A program made the translations under genes and the position numbers. Source: a virus. Taken from it: DNA of 36,721 nt. Positions within the stretch are counted from its first letter, which is position 1; each line of letters opens with the position of its first letter. Positions 13,828-35,083 of the stretch are shown in pieces. The stretch is taken from the IMG/VR virus record IMGVR_UViG_3300032294_000354, positions 1-36,721 of that record. The stretch is one strand, 5' to 3'. Under the pieces are notes generated by a model. That model saw nothing but the letters and a program-made list of their open reading frames with translations, searched no databases and was not told where the DNA came from.

Positions 13828-14213
13828 TGCGGAAGAAGAAGGGGGCGAAGAATAGTATTGCCAGCCCCAATGCTCGCGCCGTCCGATCCAATAAGAATAA
13901 GATTCAGTCCGCTACCAACATTAACAAGTGCGCTGTCCGTTCCAACGTAGCTGCTGCCAGCCTTAACGACAGCACCTCCACCAGGCTTGAGGTAGCTCCC
14001 ACCAGCTTGGACGTAAGCACCCTCAGGGGTAAGGAGTGTGTCTCCTGCTTTGACAAGCGCGCCACCAGCACCCACAGCGGAATTCCCAGCAAGCACATGC
14101 GTACTGCTACCTCGATAGACGGCAGCCACAATTTCCTGGCTCAAGCGGTCATCCGCGAGACATGTAAACGCAGTAGAGAGGGCAAGCGCGATAAGTGTGT
14201 TTGTTGTTTTCAT
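13824..14213 (-). CDS. Secreted protein of ~7-residue beta repeats (moron)
   Basis: This is the only leftward gene between 1 and 26 kb. The 129-residue product has a clear signal peptide (MKTTNTLIALALSTAFTCLA, cut before DDRLSQ). Residues about 45-115 are tandem units of about seven residues with the form [GS]-[AS]-[LYV]-[VL]-x-[AP]-[GD]: GALVKAG, DTLLTPE, GAYVQAG, GSYLKPG, GAVVKAG, SSYVGTD, SALVNVG. Such a period suggests a thin beta-solenoid or amyloid-like stack outside the cytoplasm. No Shine-Dalgarno precedes it, but a promoter with -10 six bases from the ATG does. The overlapping rightward ORF has unnatural composition. Function unknown; superinfection exclusion, surface masking or host conversion are possibilities. 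Confidence 0.72.
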   Translation of the reverse strand: MKTTNTLIALALSTAFTCLADDRLSQEIVAAVYRGSSTHVLAGNSAVGAGGALVKAGDTLLTPEGAYVQAGGSYLKPGGGAVVKAGSSYVGTDSALVNVGSGLNLILIGSDGASIGAGNTILRPLLLPH

Positions 14214-14219
14214 TTTTCT

Positions 14220-14247
14220 AGTATCTGCTAAATTAGGAGTACGTCAA
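14220..14247 (-). promoter_or_regulatory. Leaderless-type promoter for the secreted repeat protein
   Basis: On the minus strand TTGACG (14247-14242), a 16-base spacer and GATACT (14225-14220) stand six bases before the ATG at 14213. The expected start of transcription coincides with the A of the ATG. The -35 element lies within the leader of the divergent gene at 14250, so the two transcription units share this interval. The same spacing recurs at 26576, 29172 and 34553. Confidence 0.65.
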
Positions 14248-14249
14248 CA

Positions 14250-14633
14250 ATGAAATTAACATCACGGCAAATAGGTGCGGTAGGGGTGGCTCGCGTTACT
14301 GGCGCGTTGTTACGCTGCGGGTATTCGGTATTGCTGCCTTACGATGATTACGCTGGTTACGATGTGGTGGCCGAGAAGAACAATAAGTTTTATCGCATTC
14401 AGGTTAAAACTGCACAGACTGTAGAGTCTGGGCGCACCAAGTATCGGTTTACTACTAGCGTAGGGAATGGGTTCAACATACCAAAGAGGGCTATTAGTGG
14501 TGTGGATTACGTTGCATGTTGGGGGATGAATGATGACTTGTTCTGGTTGTTGCCAATTGCCAAGTGCAAAAGCATAACAACCAAGCTTTGTCCGTCGACA
14601 GGAGGGGGTTGGCGTGTATTTAAGAACCTATGA
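14250..14633 (+). CDS. PD-(D/E)XK endonuclease-like protein (PDDEXK_5 type)
   Basis: The 127-residue product shows the compact core of this nuclease group: N-terminal helix (RQIGAVGVARVTGALLRCG), then GYDVVAEKNNKFYRIQVKTAQ with Asp 38 and the Gln-x-Lys at 51-53 that replaces Glu-x-Lys in many members. AGGAG lies eleven bases before the ATG. It begins the rightward early/middle operon and overlaps the next small gene by ATGA. In related phages such proteins are resolvases or degrade host DNA; here the substrate is unknown. Confidence 0.72.
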   Translation: MKLTSRQIGAVGVARVTGALLRCGYSVLLPYDDYAGYDVVAEKNNKFYRIQVKTAQTVESGRTKYRFTTSVGNGFNIPKRAISGVDYVACWGMNDDLFWLLPIAKCKSITTKLCPSTGGGWRVFKNL

Positions 14634-14809
14634 CCGAGAAGGAGGCATGGGAATATTTTGATGATGGCTTGAAGGGCGCACAGTCTTTTGATGAGGCGGT
14701 GGAGTGGGTGAAGAAGAATCAAAAGATGGTCAGGAAGTTGACCATGCAGGCAATGATTCGCAAGTTTGATGAGGATATTAGTCACGCTAATAAAACTTGG
14801 CTTAATTAA
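14630..14809 (+). CDS. Small charged helical protein, 59 residues
   Basis: It starts with the ATGA overlap at the end of the nuclease gene and ends at 14809. The product MTEKEAWEYFDDGLKGAQSF... continues as one long amphipathic, Lys/Glu/Asp/Trp-rich helix pair ending HANKTWLN. The overlap and protein-like composition support it. It could bind or regulate the nuclease with which it is coupled; this is inference. No family recognised. Confidence 0.65.
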   Translation: MTEKEAWEYFDDGLKGAQSFDEAVEWVKKNQKMVRKLTMQAMIRKFDEDISHANKTWLN

Positions 14810-14854
14810 AAATAGATCTCGACGCGCCCTGGGTTGGCCTGCTAAAACCAACAA

Positions 14855-15301
14855 ATGGGCAAAATTAACAGCAGGGCAAAGGGTGCAGCAGGGGAGCGTG
14901 AATTAGCGAATTATCTTCGCGAGCAGGGATGGCAGAAGGCTCGCCGTAGTCAGCAATACGCTGGCAATCCAGAGGGTGGGAGTGGAGATGTGGTGTGTGG
15001 GAATTTCCCATTTCATATAGAGGGGAAGCGTTGCCAAGCTTTAAAGCCAGAGGAATGGATAGAACAGTCGAAGCGTGATTGCCCAGCAGGCAAGATCCCA
15101 GCGGTGTTCTTCCGCCGTAATGGCCGTAAGGAATGGCTTGTTATTTTAACCGCAGACAGCGCGTGCGAATTAGCTAGACAAATCGCGCCTGCCAATGTCA
15201 CTATCGAATATGCACCAAATCAACCAACACACACAACAGTCGCGAAAGGATTTTATGTACAAGAACAATCTGATCTCTCAACTATTAACCCCAACAAATA
15301 A
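14855..15301 (+). CDS. Holliday-junction-resolvase-like PD-(D/E)XK nuclease
   Basis: The 148-residue protein starts MGKINSRAKGAAGERELANYLREQGW, then RRSQQYAGNPEGGSGDVVCGNFPFHIEGKRC. This gives the Hjc/VRR-like set: Glu 14, Asp 45, and Glu-x-Lys at 56-58, followed by a helix and the strand KIPAVFFRRNGRKEWLVIL. It should cut branched or structured DNA during recombination or packaging. No Shine-Dalgarno is seen; TAAAAC stands six bases before the ATG with a TCGACG further upstream, so it may be a further leaderless start, though a poor one. Confidence 0.75.
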   Translation: MGKINSRAKGAAGERELANYLREQGWQKARRSQQYAGNPEGGSGDVVCGNFPFHIEGKRCQALKPEEWIEQSKRDCPAGKIPAVFFRRNGRKEWLVILTADSACELARQIAPANVTIEYAPNQPTHTTVAKGFYVQEQSDLSTINPNK

Positions 15302-15377
15302 GAATCTGTTTTCAGTCCTAGTCCAACTCACACCTGACACAAAAACCAAAACCAAAAAAAAGAAAGGTACGAAATAA
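15255..15377 (+). CDS. Possible 40-residue basic protein
   Basis: An ATG at 15255 has AAGGA four to five bases upstream and the frame runs to a TAA that abuts the next gene's ATG. The product (MYKNNLISQLLTPTNKNLFSVLVQLTPDTKTKT...) ends in a Lys-rich tail. It overlaps the resolvase gene by 47 bases. Support is the ribosome site and exact abutment; against it are the low-complexity tail and size. Confidence 0.35.
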   Translation: MYKNNLISQLLTPTNKNLFSVLVQLTPDTKTKTKKKKGTK

Positions 15378-16022
15378 ATGAGCCTAACACTAAGTGAATC
15401 GGCAAAAGCAACGGAACGTCAACTGCCAGAGGCAGGATCGACGATGGGAGTCTTGGTCCAATTGATTGACATGGGACTCCAAGAAACCAATTGGGACGGC
15501 GAGAAGAAGATGTCTCCCAAAGTGAGATTGACCTTCGAATTGCCTGACCAGGTGATTGAGGGAGAGGTGGTGGAGAACGGCAAAACCACAAAGGTTACCA
15601 AACCTATGATGGTTAGTCTTGAGTTGACTCGCTCGCTAGGGGAGCGCGCAACACTCCGCAAACATCTTGAGTCCTGGCGCGGTGCAGCCTTCACGTCGAA
15701 GGAGCTGGCCTCGTTCAGCCTCAAGAATCTGCTTGGCAAAGCAGCCCTGCTTACATTGATGCACAAAACCTCGCAGGCAGGCAGGCAGTATTGCGCCATC
15801 AATGCGATCAGCAAGTTGCCCAAGGGCATGACTGCTCCCAAGGAGTCGGTTGGCTCGCAGATATTCTACGAGATTGAGAGTGGTCAGAACGAAGTCTTCG
15901 CTGCTCTTCCAGAGTGGCTACAGGACAAGATTCGCGCCAGCAAGGAGTTCCAGATGGCAGCAGGGAAACCTACCGCCAGCAAGGCTGAACTTGACGCAGA
16001 CGGCAACCAGGTTCCGTTTTAA
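15378..16022 (+). CDS. Single-strand DNA-binding-like protein (OB-fold type)
   Basis: The 214-residue product matches a conserved phage protein type placed next to recombination nucleases: LPEAGSTMGVLVQLIDMGLQETNWDGEKKMSPKVRLTFELP (five-strand OB-like barrel), then LELTRSLGERATLRKHLESWRGAAFTSKELASFSLKNLLGKAALLTLMH and ALPEWLQDKIRASKEFQ. It probably coats ssDNA in replication or feeds the adjacent RecB-like nuclease; the ssDNA role is from fold pattern and context, not from a diagnostic motif. The ATG directly follows a TAA. The acidic C-terminal tip (AELDADGNQVPF) resembles SSB tails used for protein contacts. Confidence 0.65.
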   Translation: MSLTLSESAKATERQLPEAGSTMGVLVQLIDMGLQETNWDGEKKMSPKVRLTFELPDQVIEGEVVENGKTTKVTKPMMVSLELTRSLGERATLRKHLESWRGAAFTSKELASFSLKNLLGKAALLTLMHKTSQAGRQYCAINAISKLPKGMTAPKESVGSQIFYEIESGQNEVFAALPEWLQDKIRASKEFQMAAGKPTASKAELDADGNQVPF

Positions 16023-16027
16023 ATTAT

Positions 16028-16849
16028 ATGGCACTTACTATTACCAGTAAGGAGCCATCGACAGCTAGACTTGTTCAAACCGAGTCTAGCGGTCATTGGT
16101 ATACCGAAGACGGAAAATCTGCTCACGTTGTAATTGGGAAGAACGGCAACGAGCGAAATACAACTGTGGCAGATGCCAGGAAGATGGGTTTATATCCTAG
16201 CGTCACTTCGATTTTGTCTATTTTGGATAAGCCCCAATTGACCAACTGGAAAATTGAACAAAGTATCATGGCATCGCTTACCTTGCCAAAGGAGGAAAAT
16301 GAAACGCTCGAAGATTACGCTCGAAGAGTGGTTAAGGACTCTAAAGAGTCAACATCGAAAGCAGCTGAGCATGGCACGCGAATGCACGAACAAGCCGAGA
16401 ATATCCTCATGGGACGCGCTGTGTGTAAAGATGAAGATCTCCAGCCCTACATCGCGACCTTCAAGAAGTGGGCGGACGAAAACGTAGAGAAGACCTACTG
16501 GTGCGAGAAGGCTCTGGTTGGCGCAGGATACGCTGGTCGCTGTGACGCATATGTGAAGCTTAAAGGAATTGGTGACGCGATCATCGATCTCAAAAACCGC
16601 AAGGTGAATCCCAAATATGATCCGTTCTATGAAACCTCAGACTGTCCGCAGTTGTGGGCCTATAGGACAGCGAGCGAGAATCCCAAGGCAGCGTGCGTAT
16701 CCATCGTGCTTGCTTCGAATGATTCGAGCAAGCTGATGACAAGGGTGTGGGAAGATGACGAGCTGTACCAAGCTGGGATCGCATTCAATGCCCTCTTGAG
16801 GGTATGGGCTTGGGTAAAAGGTTATACCCCTCCTGGGATGAAGTTATGA
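16028..16849 (+). CDS. RecB/lambda-exo-like PD-(D/E)XK exonuclease
   Basis: The 273-residue protein contains the RecB-family nuclease series: YPSVTSILSILDKPQLTNWK near 56-75, AAEHGTRMHEQAE with His 120, Glu 160 (YWCEKALVGAGYAGRCDAYV) and Asp 173, the catalytic Asp 187-x-Lys 189 (IIDLKNRK), and the closing QLWAYRTA (Gln 208, Tyr 212). Next to the SSB-like gene it should provide 5'-end resection for recombination. There is no annealing-protein gene of Red-beta type in sight unless the preceding protein serves. It overlaps a 23-residue ORF by ATGA. Confidence 0.82.
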   Translation: MALTITSKEPSTARLVQTESSGHWYTEDGKSAHVVIGKNGNERNTTVADARKMGLYPSVTSILSILDKPQLTNWKIEQSIMASLTLPKEENETLEDYARRVVKDSKESTSKAAEHGTRMHEQAENILMGRAVCKDEDLQPYIATFKKWADENVEKTYWCEKALVGAGYAGRCDAYVKLKGIGDAIIDLKNRKVNPKYDPFYETSDCPQLWAYRTASENPKAACVSIVLASNDSSKLMTRVWEDDELYQAGIAFNALLRVWAWVKGYTPPGMKL

Positions 16850-16917
16850 TCGACCCAGCAGATGTCTTATGGTTAGAGTCGTTACTGGACCAATTCTATA
16901 GGAGACTTGCAAAATGA
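16846..16917 (+). CDS. 23-residue micro-ORF coupled on both sides
   Basis: The ORF MIDPADVLWLESLLDQFYRRLAK starts with an ATGA overlap at the end of the exonuclease gene and ends with an ATGA overlap at the start of the next. It would form one amphipathic helix. AGGAG for the next gene lies inside it. It may act as a translational relay or be a true microprotein; only the double overlap and a natural composition support it. Confidence 0.45.
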   Translation: MIDPADVLWLESLLDQFYRRLAK

Positions 16918-17210
16918 CTGCACCGACAATCCAAGAGATGGGCAACGCTGCACAGGAAATCGTGTGGCGCGTGATGGGTAAAGGATCGGATAAGTCTGGT
17001 TATGGAGATTGGCTGGAGAAGGATCGGCCTACCCACGATTACCATATCGCCAGGGCTGTTCGCCACCTGGCCACGGCACAGATGCAGCTCCATAAATCAA
17101 TGCCTTGCCCTGATAACAGCGGAGAAACAAGCGTTGACCACTTGGAGCGTGCGCTGGTAAGATGCCTGTTCACGTTGGCACAAATAAAGAAAGAGGTAAC
17201 AAGATTATGA
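16914..17210 (+). CDS. Conserved-type helical phage protein, unknown
   Basis: The 98-residue product is all-helical: IQEMGNAAQEIVWRVMGKGSDKSGYGDWLEKDRPTHDYHIARAVRHLATAQMQLHK, a short loop with two acidic residues, then SVDHLERALVRCLFTLAQIKKE. The His-x-x-x-Ala-x-Arg-His-Leu and Asp-His-Leu-x-x-Ala pair loosely recalls small helical phage proteins of the DUF5664 kind, some of which are linked to nucleotide hydrolases; I cannot confirm this. AGGAG stands nine bases before the ATG. Confidence 0.65.
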   Translation: MTAPTIQEMGNAAQEIVWRVMGKGSDKSGYGDWLEKDRPTHDYHIARAVRHLATAQMQLHKSMPCPDNSGETSVDHLERALVRCLFTLAQIKKEVTRL

Positions 17211-17479
17211 TTATGGAAGATGTAAGTGTTGATTTTGAGTTTAATGGAGAAAAATATACTGCGTATGGCAACGCAGAGATTGATACGATTACAGAAGATA
17301 TTGGTCCAGTCGGATACAGGGAACATTGTTACGCCGAGGTGGTCAACAATGTGACTATGTCAAAAATCGAAATCTCAACTGCTACTGAAGACATTAAAAA
17401 TCCAGATAAGGATTTGTTGGAAAAGGCTGATGATCTCTTGTCCATCCAGGCAACAGAAGATTTTGACGCTGGCAAATGA
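17207..17479 (+). CDS. Small acidic protein, unknown
   Basis: The start at 17207 (MIMEDVSVDFEFNGEKYTAYG) overlaps the previous stop by ATGA; an in-frame ATG at 17162 would lie deep in the previous gene. The 90-residue product begins with a beta hairpin and has an acidic end (NPDKDLLEKADDLLSIQATEDFDAGK). It overlaps the next gene by ATGA. The pattern VSVDFEFNGEKYTAYGNAEID resembles small phage proteins of unknown role. Confidence 0.65.
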   Translation: MIMEDVSVDFEFNGEKYTAYGNAEIDTITEDIGPVGYREHCYAEVVNNVTMSKIEISTATEDIKNPDKDLLEKADDLLSIQATEDFDAGK

Positions 17480-17877
17480 GAACATTGGCCATATTGGCCA
17501 TTTTTATTTTATCAACGTCTATGGCATCCAATGTCATGGTCGATGTGCAGCCACCCAAGAAGAAGATCAAGGTGCGCGTTACTGGATACTGGCCAGGTGA
17601 GGACTATTACACCAGTAAGCTGCAAAGTAGCGAGGGTGTGCGCCTCAAGGCTGGACGGCATTGCGCCACCGACCACAGGGTCATACCAGCATGGAGCAAG
17701 GTAAATATAGTGGGATCTAAACAGGAGTGGGTTGTGGTGGATACAGGCACGGCAGTCATTCAGAGGAAGGCTAGTGGGTCAAGCAAATTACCTGTTTTAG
17801 ATTTATTTTTTAAATGTGAAAAAGATTACGAAAAAGCTCGACTGCCTAAATACGCGACAGTAGAAATCAGTAAATGA
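17476..17877 (+). CDS. Secreted 3D-domain (MltA/RlpA-like double-psi barrel) protein
   Basis: The 133-residue product has a signal peptide (MRTLAILAIFILSTSMA) and a domain reading VRVTGYWPGEDYYTSKLQSSEGVRLKAGRHCATDHRVIPAWSKVNIVGSKQEWVVVDTGTAV...VLDLFF. The Asp-Thr-Gly and the later Asp-Leu-Phe-Phe correspond to the aspartates of the 3D fold used by lytic transglycosylases and cell-wall proteins. It would act on peptidoglycan in the periplasm. Unlike the endolysin gene at 13264, it lies in the early/middle operon with glycosyltransferases, so a role in the infected cell's wall or in preventing superinfection is as likely as lysis. Confidence 0.75.
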   Translation: MRTLAILAIFILSTSMASNVMVDVQPPKKKIKVRVTGYWPGEDYYTSKLQSSEGVRLKAGRHCATDHRVIPAWSKVNIVGSKQEWVVVDTGTAVIQRKASGSSKLPVLDLFFKCEKDYEKARLPKYATVEISK

Positions 17878-18056
17878 CAATCTTATCAAAAATATTTTAT
17901 TACCTGGGCGATTTTGTTAGCATCACGCTGCTGCCACTAGGGGTGGGATGGAAGCTTTACCAAAAGCTAATGCTTATATCGGTGGACTTAGACAAAAACT
18001 TTGATGTGTGGAAGGAAGCTAAACCCAGGAAAAAAAGAAAGGCCAAGAAAAAATGA
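17874..18056 (+). CDS. Small membrane protein with basic tail
   Basis: The 60-residue product has a hydrophobic N-terminal half (ILSKIFYYLGDFVSITLLPLGVGWKLY), one membrane segment, and a Lys/Arg-rich end (KEAKPRKKRKAKKK), giving an inside-positive tail. It overlaps both neighbours by ATGA. It follows the secreted 3D protein, so it may help at the envelope. No family recognised. Confidence 0.62.
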   Translation: MTILSKIFYYLGDFVSITLLPLGVGWKLYQKLMLISVDLDKNFDVWKEAKPRKKRKAKKK

Positions 18057-18241
18057 AGCTAGGAAAAATAACATTTGGAAAATCAAAGCCAGCACCAAAG
18101 ATGGTTCTTGTGGATATAACTTTTGACGATAAAACTGGAAATGAATTATTTAAGGCAGGCTTAAAGCTTTTGAAGGCTGACAGAGATGCCGTCATTGAGT
18201 ATGTCATCAAGAGGGCATTGTCATATTCTGTAAAGAAATGA
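18053..18241 (+). CDS. Small basic protein, unknown
   Basis: The 62-residue product is basic at the start (MKLGKITFGKSKPAPKMVLVDITFDDKTGNELFKAG) and ends in an amphipathic helix (DRDAVIEYVIKRALSYSVKK). The arrangement of two strands and a helix could be a small DNA- or RNA-binding fold of the ribbon-helix kind, but no diagnostic residue is visible. ATGA overlaps bind it to both neighbours. Confidence 0.6.
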   Translation: MKLGKITFGKSKPAPKMVLVDITFDDKTGNELFKAGLKLLKADRDAVIEYVIKRALSYSVKK

Positions 18242-20555: not shown

Positions 20556-20596
20556 TACAAACAATCTATGACATACACATCTAACTTGCTTCGCTA

Positions 20597-21780: not shown

Positions 21781-21823
21781 AAAGGATTGACGCAGCAGAA
21801 CGAAACAATAGAAAGGAACACCA

Positions 21824-23185: not shown

Positions 23186-23213
23186 TTGCACTTCAAATTT
23201 TATTAGGAACAAT
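23186..23213 (+). promoter_or_regulatory. Candidate leaderless-type promoter for the replication genes
   Basis: TTGCAC at 23186, a 16-base spacer and AACAAT (23208-23213) stand six bases before the ATG at 23220. The -35 is weak, but the spacing equals that of the four TTGAC promoters. No well-spaced Shine-Dalgarno is present. The 122-base gap it lies in (23098-23219) also holds a 6-bp hairpin CGCAGG/CCTGCG at 23115-23131 and an 18-codon hydrophobic ORF (23167-23223) that I would not call a gene. Confidence 0.4.
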
Positions 23214-23219
23214 GCCGAA

Positions 23220-25179: not shown

Positions 25180-25180
25180 A

Positions 25181-25413: not shown

Positions 25414-25443
25414 TTGGTGATGGGTGGATGGGTGTGGTACAAT
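25414..25443 (+). promoter_or_regulatory. Extended -10 leaderless-type promoter
   Basis: TGGTACAAT (25435-25443) is an extended -10 (TG-n-TACAAT) ending six bases before the ATG at 25450; TTGGTG at 25414 is a poor -35 at 18 bases. The predicted transcript begins at the ATG. No Shine-Dalgarno is visible for the gene at 25450, which supports leaderless initiation. Confidence 0.5.
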
Positions 25444-25449: not shown

Positions 25450-25593
25450 ATGAATAACTCAAAGCCAGGACTCTACGCCAATATCAACGCTCGCCGTAAG
25501 GCTGGAATCAGCAGAAGCAAAGCGAAAAGCACAATATCCCCCAGGGTGTATAAGGTGATGAAAGCGAAAAAGGGTGGATTCGCGCCACGATAG
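25450..25593 (+). CDS. Small basic 'PGLYANI' phage protein (47 residues)
   Basis: The product MNNSKPGLYANINARRKAGI continues SRSKAKSTISPRVYKVMKAKKGGFAPR. The start PGLYANIxARR is a conserved pattern I recognise from many short phage proteins of unknown function, always very basic. It probably binds nucleic acid. The gene has no Shine-Dalgarno but an extended -10 six bases before its ATG. It overlaps the next gene's GTG start by 20 bases. Confidence 0.75.
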   Translation: MNNSKPGLYANINARRKAGISRSKAKSTISPRVYKVMKAKKGGFAPR

Positions 25594-26275: not shown

Positions 26276-26284
26276 TCTGATTTC

Positions 26285-26405
26285 TTGTCCCTTATGGGAC
26301 AAATTTGGATTTTGTAAATCCTAGATTTCCAATTTCGGATTTTTCTTCCTTATGGGACAATTTCTGATTTTTCCCTCCTTATGGGGAAGATTCTGTAGGA
26401 TTCTG
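26285..26405. repeat. Degenerate 29-bp tandem repeats at the convergence of two operons
   Basis: Four imperfect copies start at 26290, 26320, 26348 and 26377 (steps 30, 28, 29). Copies 1 and 3 share CCTTATGGGACAA followed by a T-rich half (AATTT.TGATTTT); copy 4 has CCTTATGGGGAA; copy 2 is the most changed. Copy 1 lies in the hairpin TTGTCCCTTATGGGACAA (26285-26302). The array is very T-rich and lies where rightward and leftward transcription meet, overlapping the end of the leftward gene. It could be a two-way terminator, a protein-binding array or an origin. Confidence 0.6.
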
Positions 26406-26576
26406 TCCAGCACCATTCTGGTCTGCCTGCTTGGCCAATCGATACCGCTCCCATCTAGCAGATACCGCGCGCTGCGCTTGTTCCCTGGTGCGAGCTTTGC
26501 TTATTCCCTTTACGCTTCCGCCCTTCTTCCCCATTGCTGAGAAGTAGGCGCGGACTTGTTCGGTCAATTCACTCAT
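26379..26576 (-). CDS. Small 'KGG/SKART' helical phage protein
   Basis: The 65-residue product MSELTEQVRAYFSAMGKKGGSVKGISKARTREQAQRAVSARWERYRLAKQ... has the GKKGGSVKGxSKARTxEQAxxAVxARW pattern, common in small phage and plasmid proteins and resembling a DNA-binding helix-turn-helix of the KGG type. It has no Shine-Dalgarno but its own TTGACC promoter 34 bases upstream, and a terminator separates it from the rest of the leftward cluster, so it is a one-gene unit. Its 3' end runs into the 29-bp repeat array. A regulator or DNA-binding role is plausible. Confidence 0.72.
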   Translation of the reverse strand: MSELTEQVRAYFSAMGKKGGSVKGISKARTREQAQRAVSARWERYRLAKQADQNGAGQNPTESSP

Positions 26577-26582
26577 GCTGCG

Positions 26583-26610
26583 ATTCTCTTTTAAATTGTG
26601 ATTAGGTCAA
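26583..26610 (-). promoter_or_regulatory. Leaderless-type promoter for the 65-residue protein
   Basis: On the minus strand TTGACC (26610-26605), a 16-base spacer and GAGAAT (26588-26583) end six bases before the ATG at 26576. The -35 lies 34 bases from the ATG, as at 14213, 29172 and 34553. It begins six bases downstream of a terminator, which makes an independent promoter necessary. Confidence 0.62.
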
Positions 26611-26651: not shown

Positions 26652-26661
26652 GGTGAAACGT

Positions 26662-26965: not shown

Positions 26966-26968
26966 AAA

Positions 26969-27446: not shown

Positions 27447-27461
27447 TTTGTTTTCCTTTCC

Positions 27462-27871: not shown

Positions 27872-28603
27872 CTAGTTTGCCCTCGCAATCGCTAACGCTT
27901 TCTTTTGCTGCGAACCATGGGGCATAAACCCCACGATGACTGATCGGTCCGCGCGTTGACATAGTCCGCACGTTGCGCACGTTATATTATCGCGCGTTTG
28001 CGCGGGACAGATGACAACCTTTCGCCCTTGTGGGGTTGTTCGGTTTACAGGATTCTGATCAGGCAGAATGGTGCAAACAGGACCTATGCCAAGGGCTGCG
28101 AGTTTGTCCGCATGATTTAATCCATTCGCGCTTAGATTAATCGTGAACCCTTGCGCGTTTGCTTCCTTAATCGCTGCACGATTGCTTTGAATTGGTCCCT
28201 CCTGCCCATCCAATACAGGCTTATGCGTATAGGTGAACCCCTTGCGCCCTTGGTTTGCGTTGACCAAGTCCTTCAGCAATTCTAAGGCAATCTCCTGATT
28301 TTTTCCTGCCAAGTCTCCTGCTTGGTTATGTCTCCAAAGTTGACCCCTTGGGAGAGAGCGCAGTTCGCCAAGGAATACTTCCCAAGCGTTGCCCCTTTCT
28401 CCCCTTGAGACTTTGTCCCAATGCCATTTCATGGGGCCAATCACCATGCACCCATTGCCCTTTAAAGGGCAGGAGTCAGGGCAGGTGAATTGAGGGGAGG
28501 TTGAAACAGGTATGGGGCCTGTTTTCGCGTTGTCGCTACTTCTGGTTAGGTGGAAGGTTGGCTTGGGATCATTCAACCCTATAATTTTAGCGGGTCCCTT
28601 CAT
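27872..28603 (-). CDS. Cys-rich conserved phage protein (Gp37/Gp68-like?)
   Basis: The start at 28603 overlaps the previous stop by ATGA (an earlier in-frame ATG at 28615 is inside that gene). The 243-residue product has ordered cysteines: SPQFTCPDSCPLKGNGCMV (three at 40-55), LWRHNQAGDLAG, GFTYTHKP, GFTINLSANGLNHADKL, then KVVICPAQTRDNITCATCGLCQRADRSVIVGFMPHG. This pattern is widely conserved in phages and plasmids. The cysteines suggest a metal or Fe-S centre, and GDL/THKP/NLSAN loops suggest a TIM-barrel-like enzyme; resemblance to radical-SAM-like Gp37/Gp68 is possible but unproven. Confidence 0.75.
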   Translation of the reverse strand: MKGPAKIIGLNDPKPTFHLTRSSDNAKTGPIPVSTSPQFTCPDSCPLKGNGCMVIGPMKWHWDKVSRGERGNAWEVFLGELRSLPRGQLWRHNQAGDLAGKNQEIALELLKDLVNANQGRKGFTYTHKPVLDGQEGPIQSNRAAIKEANAQGFTINLSANGLNHADKLAALGIGPVCTILPDQNPVNRTTPQGRKVVICPAQTRDNITCATCGLCQRADRSVIVGFMPHGSQQKKALAIARAN

Positions 28604-28848: not shown

Positions 28849-28865
28849 ATATATATCTCCTTTAT

Positions 28866-28946: not shown

Positions 28947-28947
28947 T

Positions 28948-29172
28948 TTAATAAACCCCCCTTTTCACTTCTTCCATTTTCAATTCATAAAGTTTAGTCG
29001 CTGCGCGCAATGTTATCAGAGCATCAGCAACGTCTAAAGTTTCCATTATCTTAATAAGATTCTTATATGCATAAGGGGTATAGTCTCCATTCAACTTATC
29101 TTCCACGCGCTCAGCGTGGGTGCGAGTGACTTGAACCGCACTCGCGTCGGTGTGTGTAGTAATGTTGTTCAT
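28948..29172 (-). CDS. Small helical protein, first gene of the leftward operon
   Basis: The 74-residue product (MNNITTHTDASAVQVTRTHAERVEDKLNGDYTPYAYKNLIKIMETLDVADALITLRAATKLYELKMEEVKRGVY) is helical. AGCAGG is too near the ATG for a ribosome site, but TTGACT/TATGTT stand exactly as in the other leaderless promoters. As first gene under a strong promoter it is likely made early; it may be a regulator. No family recognised. Confidence 0.68.
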   Translation of the reverse strand: MNNITTHTDASAVQVTRTHAERVEDKLNGDYTPYAYKNLIKIMETLDVADALITLRAATKLYELKMEEVKRGVY

Positions 29173-29178
29173 CCTGCT

Positions 29179-29206
29179 AACATACGCAATCGGTTTGAGT
29201 AGTCAA
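29179..29206 (-). promoter_or_regulatory. Leaderless-type promoter of the leftward operon
   Basis: On the minus strand TTGACT (29206-29201), a 16-base spacer and TATGTT (29184-29179) end six bases before the ATG at 29172. It is divergent from the terminase promoter; their -35 regions are only a few bases apart, so one factor bound between them could control both operons. Confidence 0.7.
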
Positions 29207-29210
29207 GGGA

Positions 29211-29238
29211 TTTTTAAAATATATTTTTATGATAGAAT
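29211..29238 (+). promoter_or_regulatory. Extended -10 promoter of the late (terminase) operon
   Basis: TGATAGAAT (29230-29238) is an extended -10 (TG-n-TAGAAT) that ends six bases before the ATG at 29245. The expected -35 is only TTTTTA, so the extended -10 or an activator must compensate, a usual feature of late phage promoters. The start of transcription would be at the ATG. Confidence 0.5.
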
Positions 29239-29244
29239 GGGAGC

Positions 29245-29901
29245 ATGGAAGCGATGCCAAGCGATGCGCCATTGGCGCAGGACAAAGGGAAGAACGGCAA
29301 GCCATCCCTATTTAATGATCAGGTTGCGCAGGAGGTTATTGATGCATGCCGTAGCGGGTTTACGATTGAGAAAGCGGCTGCCTTGGTAGGCTTATCGCCT
29401 AGCACAATAAAATCATGGTGCACTCGCAAGCCTGAGTTTGCGCGTAGGGTGGAGACTGCGAGAAAAAAGCATGAGTTGGCCCTCCTGCGCGACATCGAAC
29501 TAGCAGGTCAAAAAAGTTGGCAGGCTAAGGCATGGATGGCGGAAAGGATATATTCCTATGCGGTCCCTAGCGCGCGCGTGCAGGTTAACGGCAGCGTTGA
29601 GCACGGACTAAGCGCAGGACTAGCGCAGATATTAGCAGGATCTCTATCGAAAAAAGAAAAGCCTGCGCAAGTAATTGAAGCGCAAGCAATTGAAGAGAGG
29701 ATTAGTTTGCCTCATAGTAAACGCAATGCTTATTGTGCGACATTAGAAGACGCGCCAAAAGTTGACGCTGCCAAGCCTGAGGAGTCCGCCATACCTTCCG
29801 CGCCAAAGCGCAAGCGACATGTGCCGATGAGAAGACGGCCAGCGCGCAAGGTTGGGGTAGGGGATACGACCACGCCCCTCCCTACCCCCCCATCCCCATA
29901 A
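29245..29901 (+). CDS. Terminase small subunit-like DNA-binding protein
   Basis: The 218-residue protein lies directly before the large terminase gene. Residues about 25-105 form the usual helix-turn-helix of small terminases: LFNDQVAQEVIDACRSGFTIEKAAALVGLSPSTIKSWCTRKPEFARRVETARKKHELALLRDIELAGQKSWQAKAWMAERIY. It should bind the packaging site and stimulate the motor. The C-terminal part is disordered and basic (KPKRKRHVPMRRRPARK), then Pro/Thr-rich. The first ATG (29245) fits the promoter geometry; an ATG at 29254 has GGAG at good spacing and could be used instead. Confidence 0.75.
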   Translation: MEAMPSDAPLAQDKGKNGKPSLFNDQVAQEVIDACRSGFTIEKAAALVGLSPSTIKSWCTRKPEFARRVETARKKHELALLRDIELAGQKSWQAKAWMAERIYSYAVPSARVQVNGSVEHGLSAGLAQILAGSLSKKEKPAQVIEAQAIEERISLPHSKRNAYCATLEDAPKVDAAKPEESAIPSAPKRKRHVPMRRRPARKVGVGDTTTPLPTPPSP

Positions 29902-29956
29902 AAAAATTTCCATACCCCCCCAAGTATTTGCGACACAAAATAAAAAGAGGTCTATA

Positions 29957-31393
29957 GTGGGCAAAACAACCAAACCCCCCAAGCGCACACCAGAGGAGAT
30001 TTTAGCGGAAATCCAGACACCAGCAGGATTCGCAAAACATGTGCTTGGACTTGAGTTATATGATTGGCAGAGAAAGGTTTTGCGCGACTTACAAGACAAA
30101 GATTGCCGAGTTGCGCTCAAGGCAGCCAACGGATCAGGCAAGACCAGCACAGTAATCGCCTCCATTTTAATTTGGCATGCGTTCTGTTTTAAGGGAAGCA
30201 TCGCTACGACAACCGCTGGCGTTTGGAGGCAGGTCGAGAAACAATTGTGGCCTAGCCTGCGCAAGCACATTGCGCGAGTAGGCGGAAATTGGGAAGTCAC
30301 ATCAGGCGAAATCCGCTACATATTTCCAGACGGCAACATGAGCAGGATCGTTGGCTACAGCGCAACAGACCCAGGGCGAGCGGAAGGGTTCCATGCCGAT
30401 GACCACGACACCATGCCGTTGCTGATTGTGGTGGACGAAGCCAAGTCAATTCCTGACCCACTCTTCGAGGCTCTGTGGCGTTGCCAACCAACTCGCGTAT
30501 TGCTCGCCTCCAGCCCTGGTGCGAGTACAGGCGCGTTCTATCGCGCATTCACCAAGGAATCTGCGATGTGGAAGAAGCACACAGTAACAGCGTTTGACTG
30601 CCCCCACATCACCAAGGCGCAAATCGACGAGGTGATGCAGAGGTACGGCGAGAAACATCCCCTCACTCGCTCAATGGTCTATGGCGAGTTTGTGGATATC
30701 GGATCGGAAAGCTTAGTCATTAACTACAACTCCCTCCAGGGTTGCCAGAACAGCCCACCTGACTTTAAGCCTGGGAGCAGGACCGCTGGGGTAGACTTTG
30801 CAGCAGGTGGCGATTGCAACGTCCTATGCATTCGAGATGGGAACAAGATCCTTCCCATGATTGCATGGCGCGATAAGGACACAATGGCAGCGGTTGGCAA
30901 GTTCATCATCGAGTTTAAGAAGGCTGGGTTAAAGCCAGAAGACATCTATGCGGACGCGAGTGGATTGGGTATGCCGATGTGCGATGCCTTGGCCGAGGCT
31001 GGGTGGAGGGTGAACAGGGTAAACTTTGGTGGCACGCCCAACGATGCTGATGCCTACACCAACAAGTCGGCTGAGATGTGGTTTAACATGTCAAAGAAGA
31101 TTGGGGATCGCGAGATCATCCTTCCAGAGGATGACGATGACCTAATGGCGCAATTGACCTGTCGCAGGACTGTGACCAACAGCAGGGGTAAGCTTGGGGT
31201 GGAATCTAAGGATTCCTTGCGCAGCAGGGGTATAGCCAGCCCTGATCGAGCGGATGCGTTGGCATTGTGCCTGGATGGTGGTAATATCCGCTGGGACTTG
31301 ACTTTCCCCACGGAAAGGCCAACTTGGAAGACGTTAAACCAAATGATGGAGTCGCACGACCCTGTCATGGCTGGCTTTGACGCAGGAGGATAA
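29957..31393 (+). CDS. terL: Terminase large subunit
   Basis: The 478-residue packaging motor begins at a GTG with AGAGG six bases upstream. The ATPase has an adenine-binding YDWQRKVLRDL near 35-45, Walker A AANGSGKT (56-63), Walker B LLIVVDEAKS with Asp 160-Glu 161, and coupling motif LLASSPGA (182-189). The RNase-H-like nuclease shows Asp 280 (AGVDFAAGGDCNV), Asp 333 (IYADASGLG) and a late Asp in SPDRADALALCL. It cuts concatemeric DNA and drives it into the procapsid. Length is normal. It is followed by small membrane proteins and the portal gene. Confidence 0.93.
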   Translation: MGKTTKPPKRTPEEILAEIQTPAGFAKHVLGLELYDWQRKVLRDLQDKDCRVALKAANGSGKTSTVIASILIWHAFCFKGSIATTTAGVWRQVEKQLWPSLRKHIARVGGNWEVTSGEIRYIFPDGNMSRIVGYSATDPGRAEGFHADDHDTMPLLIVVDEAKSIPDPLFEALWRCQPTRVLLASSPGASTGAFYRAFTKESAMWKKHTVTAFDCPHITKAQIDEVMQRYGEKHPLTRSMVYGEFVDIGSESLVINYNSLQGCQNSPPDFKPGSRTAGVDFAAGGDCNVLCIRDGNKILPMIAWRDKDTMAAVGKFIIEFKKAGLKPEDIYADASGLGMPMCDALAEAGWRVNRVNFGGTPNDADAYTNKSAEMWFNMSKKIGDREIILPEDDDDLMAQLTCRRTVTNSRGKLGVESKDSLRSRGIASPDRADALALCLDGGNIRWDLTFPTERPTWKTLNQMMESHDPVMAGFDAGG

Positions 31394-31398
31394 ACACT

Positions 31399-31569
31399 AT
31401 GAATATTTGGAATTGGATTACTTCAAACTGGCAAGAGATCGTTGCTGCCCTAGGCGGTATCGTTCTTGCTGCTCGCATTATTGTTAAACTGACACCGACC
31501 CCAGCGGATGATACGTTCTTGGAAAAGATCGTAAACTTCCTCAAGACAGTCGGACTGAATATTAAATAA
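31399..31569 (+). CDS. 56-residue membrane protein, holin candidate
   Basis: AGGAGGA precedes the ATG with good spacing. The product MNIWNWITSNWQEIVAALGG continues IVLAARIIVKLTPTPADDTFLEKIVNFLKTVGLNIK: one membrane helix (about 13-31), then LTPTPxDD and an amphipathic C-terminal helix. This exact plan (IVKLTPTPxDD) recurs as a small protein in many phages, often near lysis genes. A holin or holin-like role is likely but not shown. It lies between terminase and the spanin-like pair. Confidence 0.72.
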   Translation: MNIWNWITSNWQEIVAALGGIVLAARIIVKLTPTPADDTFLEKIVNFLKTVGLNIK

Positions 31570-31575
31570 TCTTTT

Positions 31576-31764
31576 GTGCTGCGTGCAATCCTTGAGATCA
31601 TCGCAGCCGTCTTTCGCATTATTCCAGGTTGGAAGCAGAAGCGCACTCAGAACCTTGAGAAAGAGTGGCGCAACAATCGCAAAGCTATTGATAGTGATCT
31701 GCGCGGTGAATCTTGGTGGGTGCGCAACAACGACACCAGTAACCCACACGACAGGGATAGTTGA
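31576..31764 (+). CDS. Short membrane-anchored basic protein (inner-spanin-like)
   Basis: A GTG at 31576 starts a 62-residue frame: an N-terminal hydrophobic helix (LRAILEIIAAVFRIIPGW), then a charged helix (KQKRTQNLEKEWRNNRKAIDSDLRGE) and a polar end. Another gene with a lipoprotein signal overlaps it in the +1 frame, which is the arrangement of Rz/Rz1. It is short for an inner spanin, and no ribosome site is clear, so the call is tentative. Confidence 0.48.
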   Translation: MLRAILEIIAAVFRIIPGWKQKRTQNLEKEWRNNRKAIDSDLRGESWWVRNNDTSNPHDRDS

Positions 31765-31894
31765 AGAGCTGATGAAAGATCCGACCTACATTGAGATTCG
31801 TCGCGGTACTCCTGGTGCGCGCGAATGGGCAAGGAAAGCCTTGAATGCGGTCAACGATCTTTCTTATGAACTAAAGACTGAGAGAAATAAATAA
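31655..31894 (+). CDS. Lipoprotein in the +1 frame (outer-spanin-like)
   Basis: From a TTG at 31655 the frame gives MRKSGATIAKLLIVICAVNLGGC, a textbook lipoprotein signal: basic start, hydrophobic core, lipobox L-G-G-C with Cys 23. The mature part is 57 residues (ATTTPVTHTTGIVEELMKDPTYIEI...LSYELKTERNK) and helical at the end. The frame is open from 31574, but upstream codons have no signal-peptide sense. It overlaps the inner-spanin-like gene by 110 bases in the +1 frame and ends just before the portal gene. An outer-membrane spanin role is inferred; the start codon is uncertain. Confidence 0.62.
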   Translation: MRKSGATIAKLLIVICAVNLGGCATTTPVTHTTGIVEELMKDPTYIEIRRGTPGAREWARKALNAVNDLSYELKTERNK

Positions 31895-31895
31895 T

Positions 31896-33764
31896 ATGGC
31901 AACTAATCAAGAGAAGAACAATCGTCGCGGAGATTACTACCAGAGGATTATTGATTGCCTGAACCAACGCGAAACCTGGGAGAACCGCCAGCGGTTGTTC
32001 TATCAAGCTCGCTACTTTGGTGTTCGCCGTAAGGTCAAGCCTTGGCCAACAGCAGCCGACCTGCACGTTCAGTTGATCGACACGGCGATTGAGCGTCTCA
32101 AGCCCTCCTTCGTCAACAGCGCGATTGGCAACGACATTCTCTCCAGCTTCGTTCCGATGCGTCAGCAGTTGACTCCGATTACTGTTACCGCCGAGCGTTG
32201 GTTTGATTACAAAATGCGCGAGCAGTCTAACTTCCAGAAAGAGATTGTGTCCGTCATCGACAACTTGCTTCTCTATGGTCGCGGTGTTGCCAAGGTTGTT
32301 TGGGACGATCAAAACAAGCGGATCGGCTTCGAGGCCATCGATCCTTTTCATTTGATTGTTCCTCAGTACACCAAGGAACTTAAAGACGCAGACTTCATCG
32401 TCCACATCATTTCCACTTCCGTTGATAGCTACAAGACCAACCCTCTCTACAAGCAGGACGAAAACTTTATCAAAACAATTGCTGGCAAGCCAAACAACGC
32501 TGTTGGACTTCGCAGCGAGATCCAAGACGAGATCTATCGTCGCGAAGGCATCACGCAGGAAGCTGAAGAAGATCGGATCATCTTGTGGGAAATGTACACT
32601 CCGTCGAAGGACGGATGGTTGGTTGAGACATTCTCCCCTCTTGTAGTCAACGAGAACGTGCGAAAACCCTTTACCCTCCCATACGAACACGGCGAACCTC
32701 CGTTTGTTGATTTCCCATATGAAATCACAGGTGGCGGTTGGTATAGTCCTCGCGGGGTAGCTGAAATCCTCCTCCCTGGCGAAAACCTCCTAAACAAGCT
32801 CAAGAACTCGCTCTCTGACTATGTAGAGCTGGCCAACCGCCCTGTTTTCGAAGCGCAGAATCCAGTATCGCTGAACACAGCGAACTTGAGGATGCAGCCT
32901 GGTCAGATCCTTCCGCAAGGATTGAAGCCTGTCCAGTTCAGCCAACCTCCGTTTGATTTTCAGAAGTTGATGCTCGACGAGCGTCAGCTTGCAGAGAATC
33001 GTATGGGTAATGCCGACTTTGGTGCTGGCTCGCAGTTTAATTCTGCTGACAGAAAAACCGCTGCCGAGATTCAAGCAATGCAGGGCCAGGCTGCTGCGTC
33101 TGGTGATTTGCGTAATCGCATCTTCCGAATGAGCTTGGCTCACCTCTTCCGTCAGTCTTGGGCGTTGTACGTCCAGTACGCGAAGGAAGATTTGATGTTC
33201 CGTTATGCCGACGATACTGGCGAGATGGTTCCTGAAGGAATCCATGAGCAGTACTCAATTGAGCCGAAGGGCGGACTTGACTTTATCAACCGCCAATTTG
33301 CATTGCAGAAATCAGTTGCTCGCATGCAGATGTTCCAAGGAAATCCCTACATCAACCAAGGAGAACTGGTAAAGTCAGTTCTTGAACAAGATGACCCTAG
33401 TCTCGTTAGAAAACTATTTACTGACCCGCAAGCAGGAGCAGGCGATCAAGCTGAAGATCAAGCGACAGAAATTGCGACCATGCTGGCCACAGGATTCCCT
33501 GTCGCGATTAAACCTAGCGATGATCACAAAGCGCACATATCGGTTCTCTTCGCGTTCAACCAAGCAGCGCAAATGCGTCAGCAGCCAGTAGACCAGAGTG
33601 CGGTTCAGGTTCTTATGGACCACTTGCAACAGCACTTGGCTGCGCTGGAACAGACCGATCCGAATACCTCCAGGGCAATTCAGAAACAACTTCGCGATGC
33701 AGCCAAGCCACAAGTACAACAGCAAGGCCAAGCACCGCAACAAATCCAACCACAGGTAATGTAA
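31896..33764 (+). CDS. Portal (head-tail connector) protein
   Basis: The 622-residue protein lies after terminase and before scaffold and capsid. Features are ADLHVQLIDTAIERLKPSFVNSAIGND, NFQKEIVSVIDNLLLYGRGVAKVVWDDQNKRIGFEAIDPFHLIVP, PFVDFPYEITGGGWYSPRGVAEILLPGENLLNKLKNSLSDYVELANRPVFEAQ, and RMGNADFGAGSQFNSADRKTAAEIQAMQGQAA, which follow the wing, stem and clip plan of podovirus portals, with the Ser/Thr-Ala-Glu-Ile helix usual in N4-gp56-capsid phages. The C-terminal 100 residues are Gln-rich and extended. It forms the dodecameric DNA channel and docks the motor. Confidence 0.85.
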   Translation: MATNQEKNNRRGDYYQRIIDCLNQRETWENRQRLFYQARYFGVRRKVKPWPTAADLHVQLIDTAIERLKPSFVNSAIGNDILSSFVPMRQQLTPITVTAERWFDYKMREQSNFQKEIVSVIDNLLLYGRGVAKVVWDDQNKRIGFEAIDPFHLIVPQYTKELKDADFIVHIISTSVDSYKTNPLYKQDENFIKTIAGKPNNAVGLRSEIQDEIYRREGITQEAEEDRIILWEMYTPSKDGWLVETFSPLVVNENVRKPFTLPYEHGEPPFVDFPYEITGGGWYSPRGVAEILLPGENLLNKLKNSLSDYVELANRPVFEAQNPVSLNTANLRMQPGQILPQGLKPVQFSQPPFDFQKLMLDERQLAENRMGNADFGAGSQFNSADRKTAAEIQAMQGQAAASGDLRNRIFRMSLAHLFRQSWALYVQYAKEDLMFRYADDTGEMVPEGIHEQYSIEPKGGLDFINRQFALQKSVARMQMFQGNPYINQGELVKSVLEQDDPSLVRKLFTDPQAGAGDQAEDQATEIATMLATGFPVAIKPSDDHKAHISVLFAFNQAAQMRQQPVDQSAVQVLMDHLQQHLAALEQTDPNTSRAIQKQLRDAAKPQVQQQGQAPQQIQPQVM

Positions 33765-33765
33765 T

Positions 33766-34515
33766 ATGGCAACCAAAACCACAACTTCAGCAGGAACAAC
33801 CATGAGTCCGATGGACATGGTGCAAAATCCTAATTTTTCATCCTTAATGCGAAATCAGGATTATTTCAATACACTTGCGCAATTGGTAGCAGATCGTCAA
33901 GCGCGAGGTGAAATGCCTAATCTAATGCCAATTGGTGGAACAGGAATTACTGAAGAGCAAAAGAAAAGGCTTTCTCCAGAAGAAAGAAGGAATCTTGACG
34001 AGGCAATAGCAATGCGCCAAAGCGGATCTAGTGGGCCAAATTACCAAGCTCCAAACCGACCCATTGCAACAACTGGAAGTAGAATGCCACAAGCAGGTTC
34101 AAACATTACTCAAATGGAGCCGATCCCCTCACAGGACGAAATTAATAAAAGAATGGAATTTATTAGGACACTTAATGAAAATCCAAGAATCCAAGAGTTC
34201 AGGAGAATTCCACCACCACAAATTGCCAATCAGCAGGGTGTATTTCAAATGCCAGCGCAACAACCGCTTTCAGCAAATGTACCAGTTGTGAATCAATCGG
34301 CACAACTAAGACCACAGATGCAGAACTATAACCAAATGCTTCAGCAGGGAATGCGCAGGAATCAAGACATGAACCAAGCAGTTCAGAACATCGCAGCTCC
34401 TGCTGGTCCAGCCAGAAGTTTCTCTCAGGTTGCAGGTAGAACTCGTCGCATGAACCGCATGTCTAGACAGCCTCGCAACAACTCCCTCGCCCCTAGCAAT
34501 CAGAAGTTAATTTAA
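33766..34515 (+). CDS. Gln/Asn/Pro-rich virion-operon protein, unknown
   Basis: The 249-residue product begins one base after the portal stop. It is largely disordered: helical at about 18-90 (DYFNTLAQLVADRQARGEMPN; EEQKKRLSPEERRNLDEAIAMRQ), then repetitive Gln/Pro/Asn sequence and a basic end (SRQPRNNSLAPSNQKLI). Such proteins in this place may be head-associated or assembly factors. No family recognised. It is followed by an independent promoter. Confidence 0.65.
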   Translation: MATKTTTSAGTTMSPMDMVQNPNFSSLMRNQDYFNTLAQLVADRQARGEMPNLMPIGGTGITEEQKKRLSPEERRNLDEAIAMRQSGSSGPNYQAPNRPIATTGSRMPQAGSNITQMEPIPSQDEINKRMEFIRTLNENPRIQEFRRIPPPQIANQQGVFQMPAQQPLSANVPVVNQSAQLRPQMQNYNQMLQQGMRRNQDMNQAVQNIAAPAGPARSFSQVAGRTRRMNRMSRQPRNNSLAPSNQKLI

Positions 34516-34518
34516 GCC

Positions 34519-34546
34519 TTGACTTTATAGCTACATCCGCTTGTAT
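34519..34546 (+). promoter_or_regulatory. Leaderless-type promoter for the methyltransferase
   Basis: TTGACT (34519-34524) lies 34 bases before the ATG at 34553. With 16-base spacing the -10 is TTGTAT (34541-34546); with 17 it is TGTATT (34542-34547), a better match. No Shine-Dalgarno fits. It starts four bases after the stop of the preceding gene, so it could let the methyltransferase and capsid genes be expressed apart from the terminase promoter. Confidence 0.58.
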
Positions 34547-34552
34547 TGGCGG

Positions 34553-35083
34553 ATGGCAGTACCAGTAATGCGCGATGCATTCCAAGCCGAAGGCTTGGCA
34601 AAACTTTGTAAGTGGGCAAATCAGAATGGCGCGATTGGCAAGTGTGTTGAGATTGGATCATATAGTGGCGAGGGTACTGTGGTACTAGCTGATTATTTTA
34701 AAGAAGTACTGGCAGTAGATCCCTGGGAGAATGGGTACGATCCGAACGATGTGGCAAGCCACCAATGCCCAATGGAAGATGTTTTTAATGCCTTTACCGA
34801 AAGAACCAAGCCTAAGGGCAACGTAACCTTCTCTCGCGGTAAGAGCCTGGATGCGCTTGAGTTTGTTGCCGACGGATCGCTTGACATGGTTTATGTTGAC
34901 GGAGATCATAGGTACGAGGGTGCAGTTGCCGACATCAAAGGATGGTTGCCCAAGCTAAGAAAGGGTGGATGCATGACAGGCCACGACTTCAGCTTCCCAG
35001 CAGTAAGACAGGCACTCTCAGAGACTTTCACAGGCGATTACTTGGCCTTATTCCAGGGCGATAGCTGGGGGTACATAGTATGA
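34553..35083 (+). CDS. Class I SAM-dependent methyltransferase
   Basis: The ATG at 34553 was chosen over an upstream TTG because it fits the promoter spacing. The 176-residue enzyme has motif I VEIGSYSGEGTVVLADY, an acidic strand end VLAVDPWENG, and the later block SLDMVYVDGDHRYEGAVADIKGWLPKLRKGGCMTGHDFSFP, typical of Methyltransf_24 enzymes that act on small molecules or sugars. Its place in a virion operon is odd; it may modify a virion glycan or small molecule. Overlaps the next gene by ATGA. Confidence 0.8.
   Translation: MAVPVMRDAFQAEGLAKLCKWANQNGAIGKCVEIGSYSGEGTVVLADYFKEVLAVDPWENGYDPNDVASHQCPMEDVFNAFTERTKPKGNVTFSRGKSLDALEFVADGSLDMVYVDGDHRYEGAVADIKGWLPKLRKGGCMTGHDFSFPAVRQALSETFTGDYLALFQGDSWGYIV

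Follow-up and report, generated by a model that had tools for sequence, protein, structure and literature searches.

Genome organization and candidate promoters

The DNA analysed here, hereafter the window, is the whole of IMG/VR virus record IMGVR_UViG_3300032294_000354 (36,721 nucleotides), in which several start codons are preceded by promoters so close that the predicted mRNAs would carry no leader. The first and last 123 bases of the record (1-123 and 36599-36721) form an identical direct repeat, so it most likely represents a complete, circularly closed (permuted) phage genome of 36598 bp. Among its genes are those for the small and the large terminase, for an SU10-type portal and for a primase/helicase-like ATPase, alongside many small ones. 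A tRNA search of the window found none, and no phage RNA polymerase or sigma factor domain was detected among the 30 window proteins searched. In our gene map two gene runs point rightward, one starting at 29245 and continuing across the closed ends to 13827, the other covering 14250 to about 26275. Leftward genes comprise an operon (29172 to 26379) and a lone gene at 13824-14213.

A preliminary description of this sequence had placed TTGAC exactly 34 bp before four ATG codons, and its coordinates, hexamers and distances all proved right. Below, the gap is the number of bp between the end of the -10 and the ATG. Start codons were chosen by us, with the ATGs at 34553 and 25450 taken from the preliminary description. 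The promoter at the start of the leftward early operon (29173-29206, - strand) reads TTGACT (29206-29201)-16-TATGTT (29184-29179)-6-ATG 29172; it precedes a gene of 74 aa (28948-29172, -), predicted to be leaderless, whose codons 2-17 make up an A/C-rich start cassette, 'MNNITTHTDASAVQVTR'. On the same strand, TTGACG (14247-14242)-16-GATACT (14225-14220)-6-ATG 14213 (promoter 14214-14247) precedes the lone gene (13824-14213, 129 aa), and TTGACC (26610-26605)-16-GAGAAT (26588-26583)-6-ATG 26576 (promoter 26577-26610) would be an internal promoter for the last gene of the leftward operon (26379-26576, 65 aa); neither product has a Pfam or PHROG match. The fourth box lies on the + strand (34519-34552), where TTGACT (34519-34524) and TTGTAT/TGTATT (34541-34547) precede ATG 34553 of a Methyltransf_24 protein gene (34553-35083). 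This site can be read in two ways, as TTGACT-16-TTGTAT-6-ATG or as -17-TGTATT-5.

Three further starts, all on the + strand, keep a -10 at the same place, two of them in extended form, as had been reported. The extended -10 elements are TGGTACAAT (25435-25443), 6 bp from ATG 25450 of a 47-aa protein (MNNSKPGLYANINARRKAG...), and TGATAGAAT (29230-29238), 6 bp from ATG 29245 of the terminase small subunit gene (29245-29901); both sites depend on the extended -10 and are without a good -35. The third promoter is weak and was read by eye as TTGCAC (23186-23191)-16-AACAAT (23208-23213)-6-ATG 23220 (promoter 23186-23219), its -35-like TTGCAC at -34 having previously been overlooked. Considering the window and its relatives together, TTGACA-like and TATAAT-like hexamers lie 15-18 bp apart, as in sigma70-type promoters, and the -10 stands 6-8 bp ahead of the start codon.

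According to the gene map, 29172-, 29245+ and 14213- have no same-strand gene close upstream. The other four sites are internal to operons: 34553+, 23220+ and 25450+ lie inside rightward runs (upstream gaps of 37, 122 and 270 bp, respectively), whereas 26576- closes the leftward operon (85 bp). Between 14213- and 14250+, the -35 of the leftward promoter ends just ahead of the 14250 ATG. The extended -10 of 14250+ itself, TGCTAAATT, ends 15 bp before the ATG and AGGAG lies between it and the expected transcription start (14226-14250); because AGGAG precedes the expected start (+1), this Shine-Dalgarno (SD) sequence would be outside that transcript.

Spacing statistics and Shine-Dalgarno pairing

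Among the 1205 ATGs on both strands of the window, only four have TTGAC at -34, exactly the four named above, against a mean of 1.6 over offsets 15-60. When analysis was limited to 54 ATG gene starts (non-ATG starts excluded), TTGAC occurred at offsets 34 (four times), 37, 24, 23, 22 and 13, and in 20000 draws of 54 random ATGs four at one offset between 15 and 60 were never reached. The agreement thus exceeds chance, as originally argued; the accompanying estimate of about one occurrence per 1,024 positions was a little low for this genome, which holds 103 TTGAC in 2 x 36598 positions. The same 54 starts were scanned with a generic sigma70 matrix (E. coli-like weights). At score 7, seven matches fell at gap 6 where 0.15 were expected per gap, with one each at gaps 5, 8, 14, 15, 21, 27 and 28 and none elsewhere. 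At stricter scores gap 6 retained five (score 8) and two matches (score 9), all other gaps having at most one.

The seven gap-6 matches omit 23220+, which is below the threshold, and include CATAAT before 11132, a site already flagged as a mimic and probably one. This site illustrates a simple alternative, in which -10-like words arise by chance in AT-rich gene starts and are shared by relatives through common descent. Many relatives are indeed close kin and some of their gap-6 matches fall within other genes, and chance may explain individual sites, for example 11132 or 23220. The 20000 permutations without a hit and the gap-6 peak, which is seen at the window gene starts and again in both groups of relatives (see below), speak against it as a general account.

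None of the seven candidates reaches an anti-SD pairing of -4.5 kcal/mol or better, compared with half of the other starts (25 of 50) and 20% of random positions (rank test P 0.028). The claim that these starts have no usable SD is therefore upheld, with 25450+ (-4.3) and 23220+ (-4.2) narrowly missing the cut-off. Weak SD pairing would also be expected if the promoters were real while the functional mRNA started further upstream, so that leadered read-through transcripts would be translated independently of an SD through A-rich unstructured starts or coupling. This explanation draws on the position of 34553+, 23220+, 25450+ and 26576- inside gene runs, on the 25 of 50 other starts that are likewise without a strong SD, and on the listing of Akkermansia, a genus of the probable host phylum (see below), among SD-scarce bacteria (PMC10783764). 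It leaves unexplained why gap 6 also occurs at 29172-, 29245+ and 14213-, where no same-strand gene is close upstream.

Conservation in related phages

Relatives were collected by a terminase scan (31 loci, mostly of 94-99% identity, with one of 88%, one of 75% and two of 27%) and by a scan with gene 14213 (16 loci); gaps of 5 to 8 were accepted in scoring the close relatives. A further 64 loci with 75-78% terminase identity, added by an alignment-based scan, are referred to as the outer clade. The promoter geometry is present in 16/16 close relatives at 14213- (three with spacer 17 and gap 7), 16/16 at 26576-, 14/15 at 34553+ and 9/10 at 29172-, and the weak 23220+ promoter is kept in 12 of 13. 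At 25450+, all 14 scored close relatives keep the geometry (three unscored), and at 29245+ gap 6 is found in 21 of the 22 scored (two unscored). In these genomes the -35, the -10 and their distance are kept while the spacer sequence varies. Of 21 scored outer-clade loci, 18 retain the extended -10 of 25450+, with gap 6 or 7 (ten unscored; the three misses look like wrongly chosen ATGs); with a relaxed -10, 30 of 39 scored outer-clade loci have a gap of 5-8 at 29245+, 16 more having no clear start.

Common descent accounts for part of this conservation, but three facts are at odds with simple inheritance. First, at 26576- the arrangement is rebuilt as TTGCTA-17-TAATAT-6-ATG by an unrelated upstream sequence that four of the 16 close relatives have in common. 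Second, the 34553 promoter, with a varied spacer, stands 34 bp before another gene (MEMKQFEF..., 266 aa) in three loci (L006, L013 and L015), and in L016 a promoter of this type lies ahead of a possible cut start of the 266-aa gene. Third, a blind scan of all ATGs in distinct sequences peaks at gap 6 in both sets: the close relatives have 57 there and 2-34 at each remaining gap, the outer clade 76 and 6-42. Open reading frames (ORFs) of at least 40 aa are opened by 80 of 99 gap-6 ATGs in the close relatives and 73 of 87 in the outer clade.

Fixed boxes could also be operator or regulator sites of a phage repressor, held at a set distance from the ATG for autoregulation. By eye, the 34553-type spacer in L018, L020 and L023 forms an inverted repeat whose sequence changes (GCGGTATAACCGC, AGCGCCAATGGCGCT) and which may be an operator. 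The window promoters differ in spacer yet share the -35, the -10 and the gap, and we regard an operator origin of the geometry as highly improbable, though no search aimed at operators was made.

Leader and predicted leaderless modules at the early operon

The strongest evidence for leaderless starts comes from outside the window, namely from regions corresponding to 29172-. The divergence between terminase and early operon was sought in 237 sources, which include many overlapping fragments of shared contigs; 172 contained the region, giving 114 distinct sequences. In 78 of these the promoter leads to an ATG, in 31 to a leader, and in five to neither. The best -10 within 14 bp of the ATG-led edges leaves a gap of 6 in 63 regions, 7 in six, 8 in three and another value in six. 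The leaders are conserved and belong to a TGTCGAGGG type (29) or to another, TACCAAGGC (two); all 31 contain an SD word and 30 are 56-63 nt long. Their first conserved base lies 6 bp after the -10 in 24 of 31 and 5-8 bp after it in 30 of 31, i.e. where the ATG stands in the other phages. One of the five unclassed regions, L265, resembles a leader variant. For edges drawn at random further downstream, the gap distribution was flat. When promoters were grouped at ≥ 80% identity, gap 6 was found in 28 of 35 ATG-led groups and 12 of 15 leader groups.

The recurrence of gap 6 across 28 promoter groups less than 80% identical to each other, together with the unrelated upstream sequence at 26576-, complements the permutations and peaks described above. 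Chance resemblance plus common descent is rejected as a general account on the strength of the permutations, the gap-6 peaks and the promoter groups, its remaining probability being close to negligible.

Leadered and ATG-led promoters could be matched in seven pairs that share 82-97% identity over -40 to -7 and 17-42% downstream; in most of these pairs similarity is lost within the six bases before the leader or ATG edge. The cleanest pair is L298/L302. In the leader, a hairpin is predicted whose outer helix starts at the first leader base; among 22 distinct leaders, this base is paired in 19. The pair that follows is G-C in 19 leaders and A-U in the other three, and two inner pairs each show one double change. 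Constraint at the RNA level thus begins at the very base where the ATG begins in other phages. Comparison of the leader and ATG edges maps +1 to about one base, and we know of no other reading that places both edges at the same spot. Because the -10 ends 6 bp (7 or 8 in some relatives) before the ATG, and near-identical promoters continue either as leader or as ATG, transcription most likely begins on the A of the ATG or next to it. Functional starts further upstream would leave this exchange unexplained as well, and we consider them very unlikely.

The leaderless first genes share about 16 initial codons (MNNTNTQTEASAVKVTR and similar) and then continue as differing proteins. In 72 first genes with gaps 5-8, the median A+C content of codons 2-17 is 0.69, compared with 0.50 in their own codons 21-60 and 0.58 in SD-led first genes (P 8e-6). 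The seven window candidates are also slightly richer in A+C in codons 2-11 (0.70 vs 0.57, P 0.03). Thirteen of the 78 leaderless bodies, from two protein families, match an SD-led first gene from residue 17-21 onward, the SD-led gene matching from its residue 2-3. In all 13 the Met1 of the SD-led homolog is replaced by T, A or G, and an SD-like word precedes the place of the replaced Met1 in one. Because this Met1 is missing, these predicted leaderless genes must start translation at the ATG of the cassette itself, which would substitute for leader plus SD. In the divergent region of L007 the cassette is present twice: close behind a predicted leaderless gene of 41 aa lies another whose first codons are almost identical, and this second gene has neither such a promoter nor a clear SD in front.

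Several observations weigh against a transcription start fixed at the ATG. At the early operon, six of 78 ATG-led regions have other gaps, one of 31 leaders starts at gap 1 and five of 114 regions are unclassed. The analysis also selects for proximity, as the best promoter no more than 14 bp from the edge was taken and, of several ATGs, the one with the best promoter. Random edges within the same stretch gave a slightly raised count at gap 6 (15 of 109, with 2-14 elsewhere). Related sequences are not independent, and this extends to the seven pairs, in two of which the leadered promoters (L298 and L290) are nearly alike. In the leader type the purine comes at the second position, which leaves room for a one-base difference in +1. 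In the window alone, the scan of all ATGs is not sharp (six at gap 6, at most five elsewhere), and in the relatives part of the gap-6 matches fall within other genes. The blind scans have lesser peaks at gap 15 (34, close relatives) and gaps 5 and 29 (40 and 42, outer clade); ORFs of at least 40 aa are opened by 37 of 54 gap-15 ATGs (close relatives) and 31 of 45 gap-29 ATGs (outer clade), perhaps leadered starts. In the outer clade, gaps at 29245+ spread from 5 to 8 with nine of 39 scored loci lacking the promoter, and no promoter was found at 26576- (0/30), 34553+ (0/35) or 23220+ (0/19). All nine outer-clade cases of 26576- shown have an SD-like word in its place. Conservation of the geometry, which had been proposed as a check, thus holds in close relatives and fails at three of seven sites in the outer clade, so the set of leaderless genes appears to differ between clades.

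Host

A Verrucomicrobiota bacterium is the probable host. The six contigs of 48-205 kb matching the large terminase at 43-49% are all titled Verrucomicrobiota or Akkermansia, and the nearest named phages by terminase are Akkermansia phages (35-37%). Matches of 47-48% also come from two contigs shorter than 4 kb, with the titles Aquidulcis and Chloroflexota. A prophage search using the terminase of the window alone found no host, and a DNA similarity search against 387 genomes of the phylum of G002, the genome of L055, gave only short, weak and uninformative matches, in 15 of them.

Leaderless sites make up 10% of the mapped transcription starts of Akkermansia muciniphila (886 positions in replicate 1), compared with 0.4% in E. 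coli (PMC4782308). We compared the leaderless spacing with a spacing 6 bp longer in 145 genomes of the G002 phylum and counted 1622 vs 712 sites (115 genomes up, 20 down, 10 equal). The corresponding counts in 60 genomes of the phylum of a gammaproteobacterium were 277 vs 167 (41 up, 12 down, 7 equal; odds ratio between phyla 1.37, P 0.004), an excess larger than we had expected from the low E. coli rate. As the gammaproteobacterial phylum shows an excess too, the geometry is not claimed to be special to Verrucomicrobiota. A positional profile over 800 kb of five G002-phylum genomes contained too few genes and was mostly flat, and a scan of all ATGs in this DNA (48 at gap 6 vs 25-47 elsewhere) is too weak alone. 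The Akkermansia phages Chambord and Chantilly show no sharp gap peak. Each has one repressor-annotated gene with a matching promoter, 8781- in L049 (TTGCAA-16-TAATAT-6-ATG) and 5533- in L050 (TTGAAG-16-CATTAT-6-ATG). The phage probably follows a leaderless habit already present in its host.

Comparison with known systems

In phage lambda, cI is likewise a phage gene with a leaderless mRNA, and its leaderless promoter is PRM. It is a single gene, whereas five to seven starts per genome are predicted here, including the divergent early and terminase starts. Leaderless lambda mRNA is named in PMC3160421 and PMC9031893. The former surveyed 953 bacterial genomes, and the word Verrucomicrobia is absent from its main text.

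The suggestion that a phage genome with leaderless initiation as its usual operon-start signal would be unusual was overstated in view of the A. muciniphila start sites (PMC4782308) and of cluster O mycobacteriophages, for which leaderless promoters have been predicted at several operon starts (PMC4351075). The cluster O case (Corndog and relatives; PL1, PR2 and PL2) concerns a mycobacterial host and prediction only, and the excerpt of PMC4351075 describes no exchange between leader and leaderless forms. A leaderless promoter has also been predicted for one gene of mycobacteriophage Adephagia (PMC11373665). In Deinococcus-Thermus, a -10 adjoining the ORF has been shown experimentally: TANNNT directly before the ATG yields leaderless mRNA, as proposed for this phage, but the genes are bacterial and the -10 alone suffices, whereas the phage sites mostly have a -35 (PMC12340547). 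A. muciniphila shares the probable host phylum and has start sites at the start codon, but these belong to host genes, and the excerpt of PMC4782308 mentions no phage.

In E. coli, CA repeats after the start codon raise the translation of mRNAs with and without a leader (Martin-Farmer and Janssen 1999, cited in PMC9031893). These C/A-rich codons directly after AUG resemble the 29172 cassette, whose A/C-rich codons may by analogy enhance translation; unlike the CA repeats, the cassette also encodes a conserved peptide. Among the literature matches listed (titles and abstract starts, with subscription papers mostly outside), we found neither leaderless promoters in Verrucomicrobiota phages nor a leader/leaderless exchange at one promoter.

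Other features of the window

One rightward run contains three distinct small PD-(D/E)XK nuclease-like genes (PDDEXK_5, _15 and _14, at 14250, 14855 and 20139). Two glycosyltransferases (families 8 and 9), the Methyltransf_24 protein and a 2OG-Fe(II) oxygenase are encoded at 18238, 21955, 34553 and 19573, respectively. A DUF7227 protein (E 1.4e-89) is encoded at 27872-28603 (-). Between the converging operons, 26276-26395 holds three near-repeats of CCTTATGGGACAA/GGGAAG, one a terminator-like match, and is perhaps a terminator region.

Interpretation

We consider it highly probable that these phages transcribe leaderless mRNAs from ATG-proximal promoters, with interchangeable 5' modules at the early operon of the family. 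A host sigma70-type RNA polymerase would initiate on, or about one base from, the A of the start codon, and the mRNAs would be translated from a 5'-terminal AUG without an SD. Across the family, the leftward early operon offers a single promoter slot that accepts either of these two modules. One is a leader of about 60 nt with a 5' hairpin followed by an SD; the other is a leaderless cassette, an AUG plus about 16 A/C-rich codons in-frame with the first gene. The exchange point lies between the end of the -10 and +1.

The initial proposal of a transcription start on or beside the A of the ATG is very probably right, in view of the geometry, the weak SD pairing, conservation at a fixed distance, promoter replacement and the leader/ATG swap. 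Calling it the genome's standard operon-start signal overstates the case: four sites are operon-internal, three of seven are missing in the outer clade, 31 of 114 regions have an SD leader at the main early operon, and the best -10 of the 14250+ run lies 15 bp away.

The more interesting fact, seen outside the window, is the exchange of leader and leaderless 5' modules at the start site of one promoter. We lean towards the view that the mode of translation initiation is itself a swappable part. Recombination at the transcription start would swap a hairpin and SD leader for a leaderless cassette or the reverse, each joined to first genes that are themselves interchangeable, perhaps matching the SD use of different hosts or escaping an inhibition of SD-led initiation.

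Studies of leaderless mRNA usually compare unrelated genes. Here, near-identical promoters, some with homologous first genes, differ in leader state, so that why and when genes go leaderless, and what the first codons contribute, become directly testable in related phages. In addition, the order of a -10, 6 bp and an ATG supplies a sequence rule by which operon starts and the correct start codons of similar uncultivated phages may be located.

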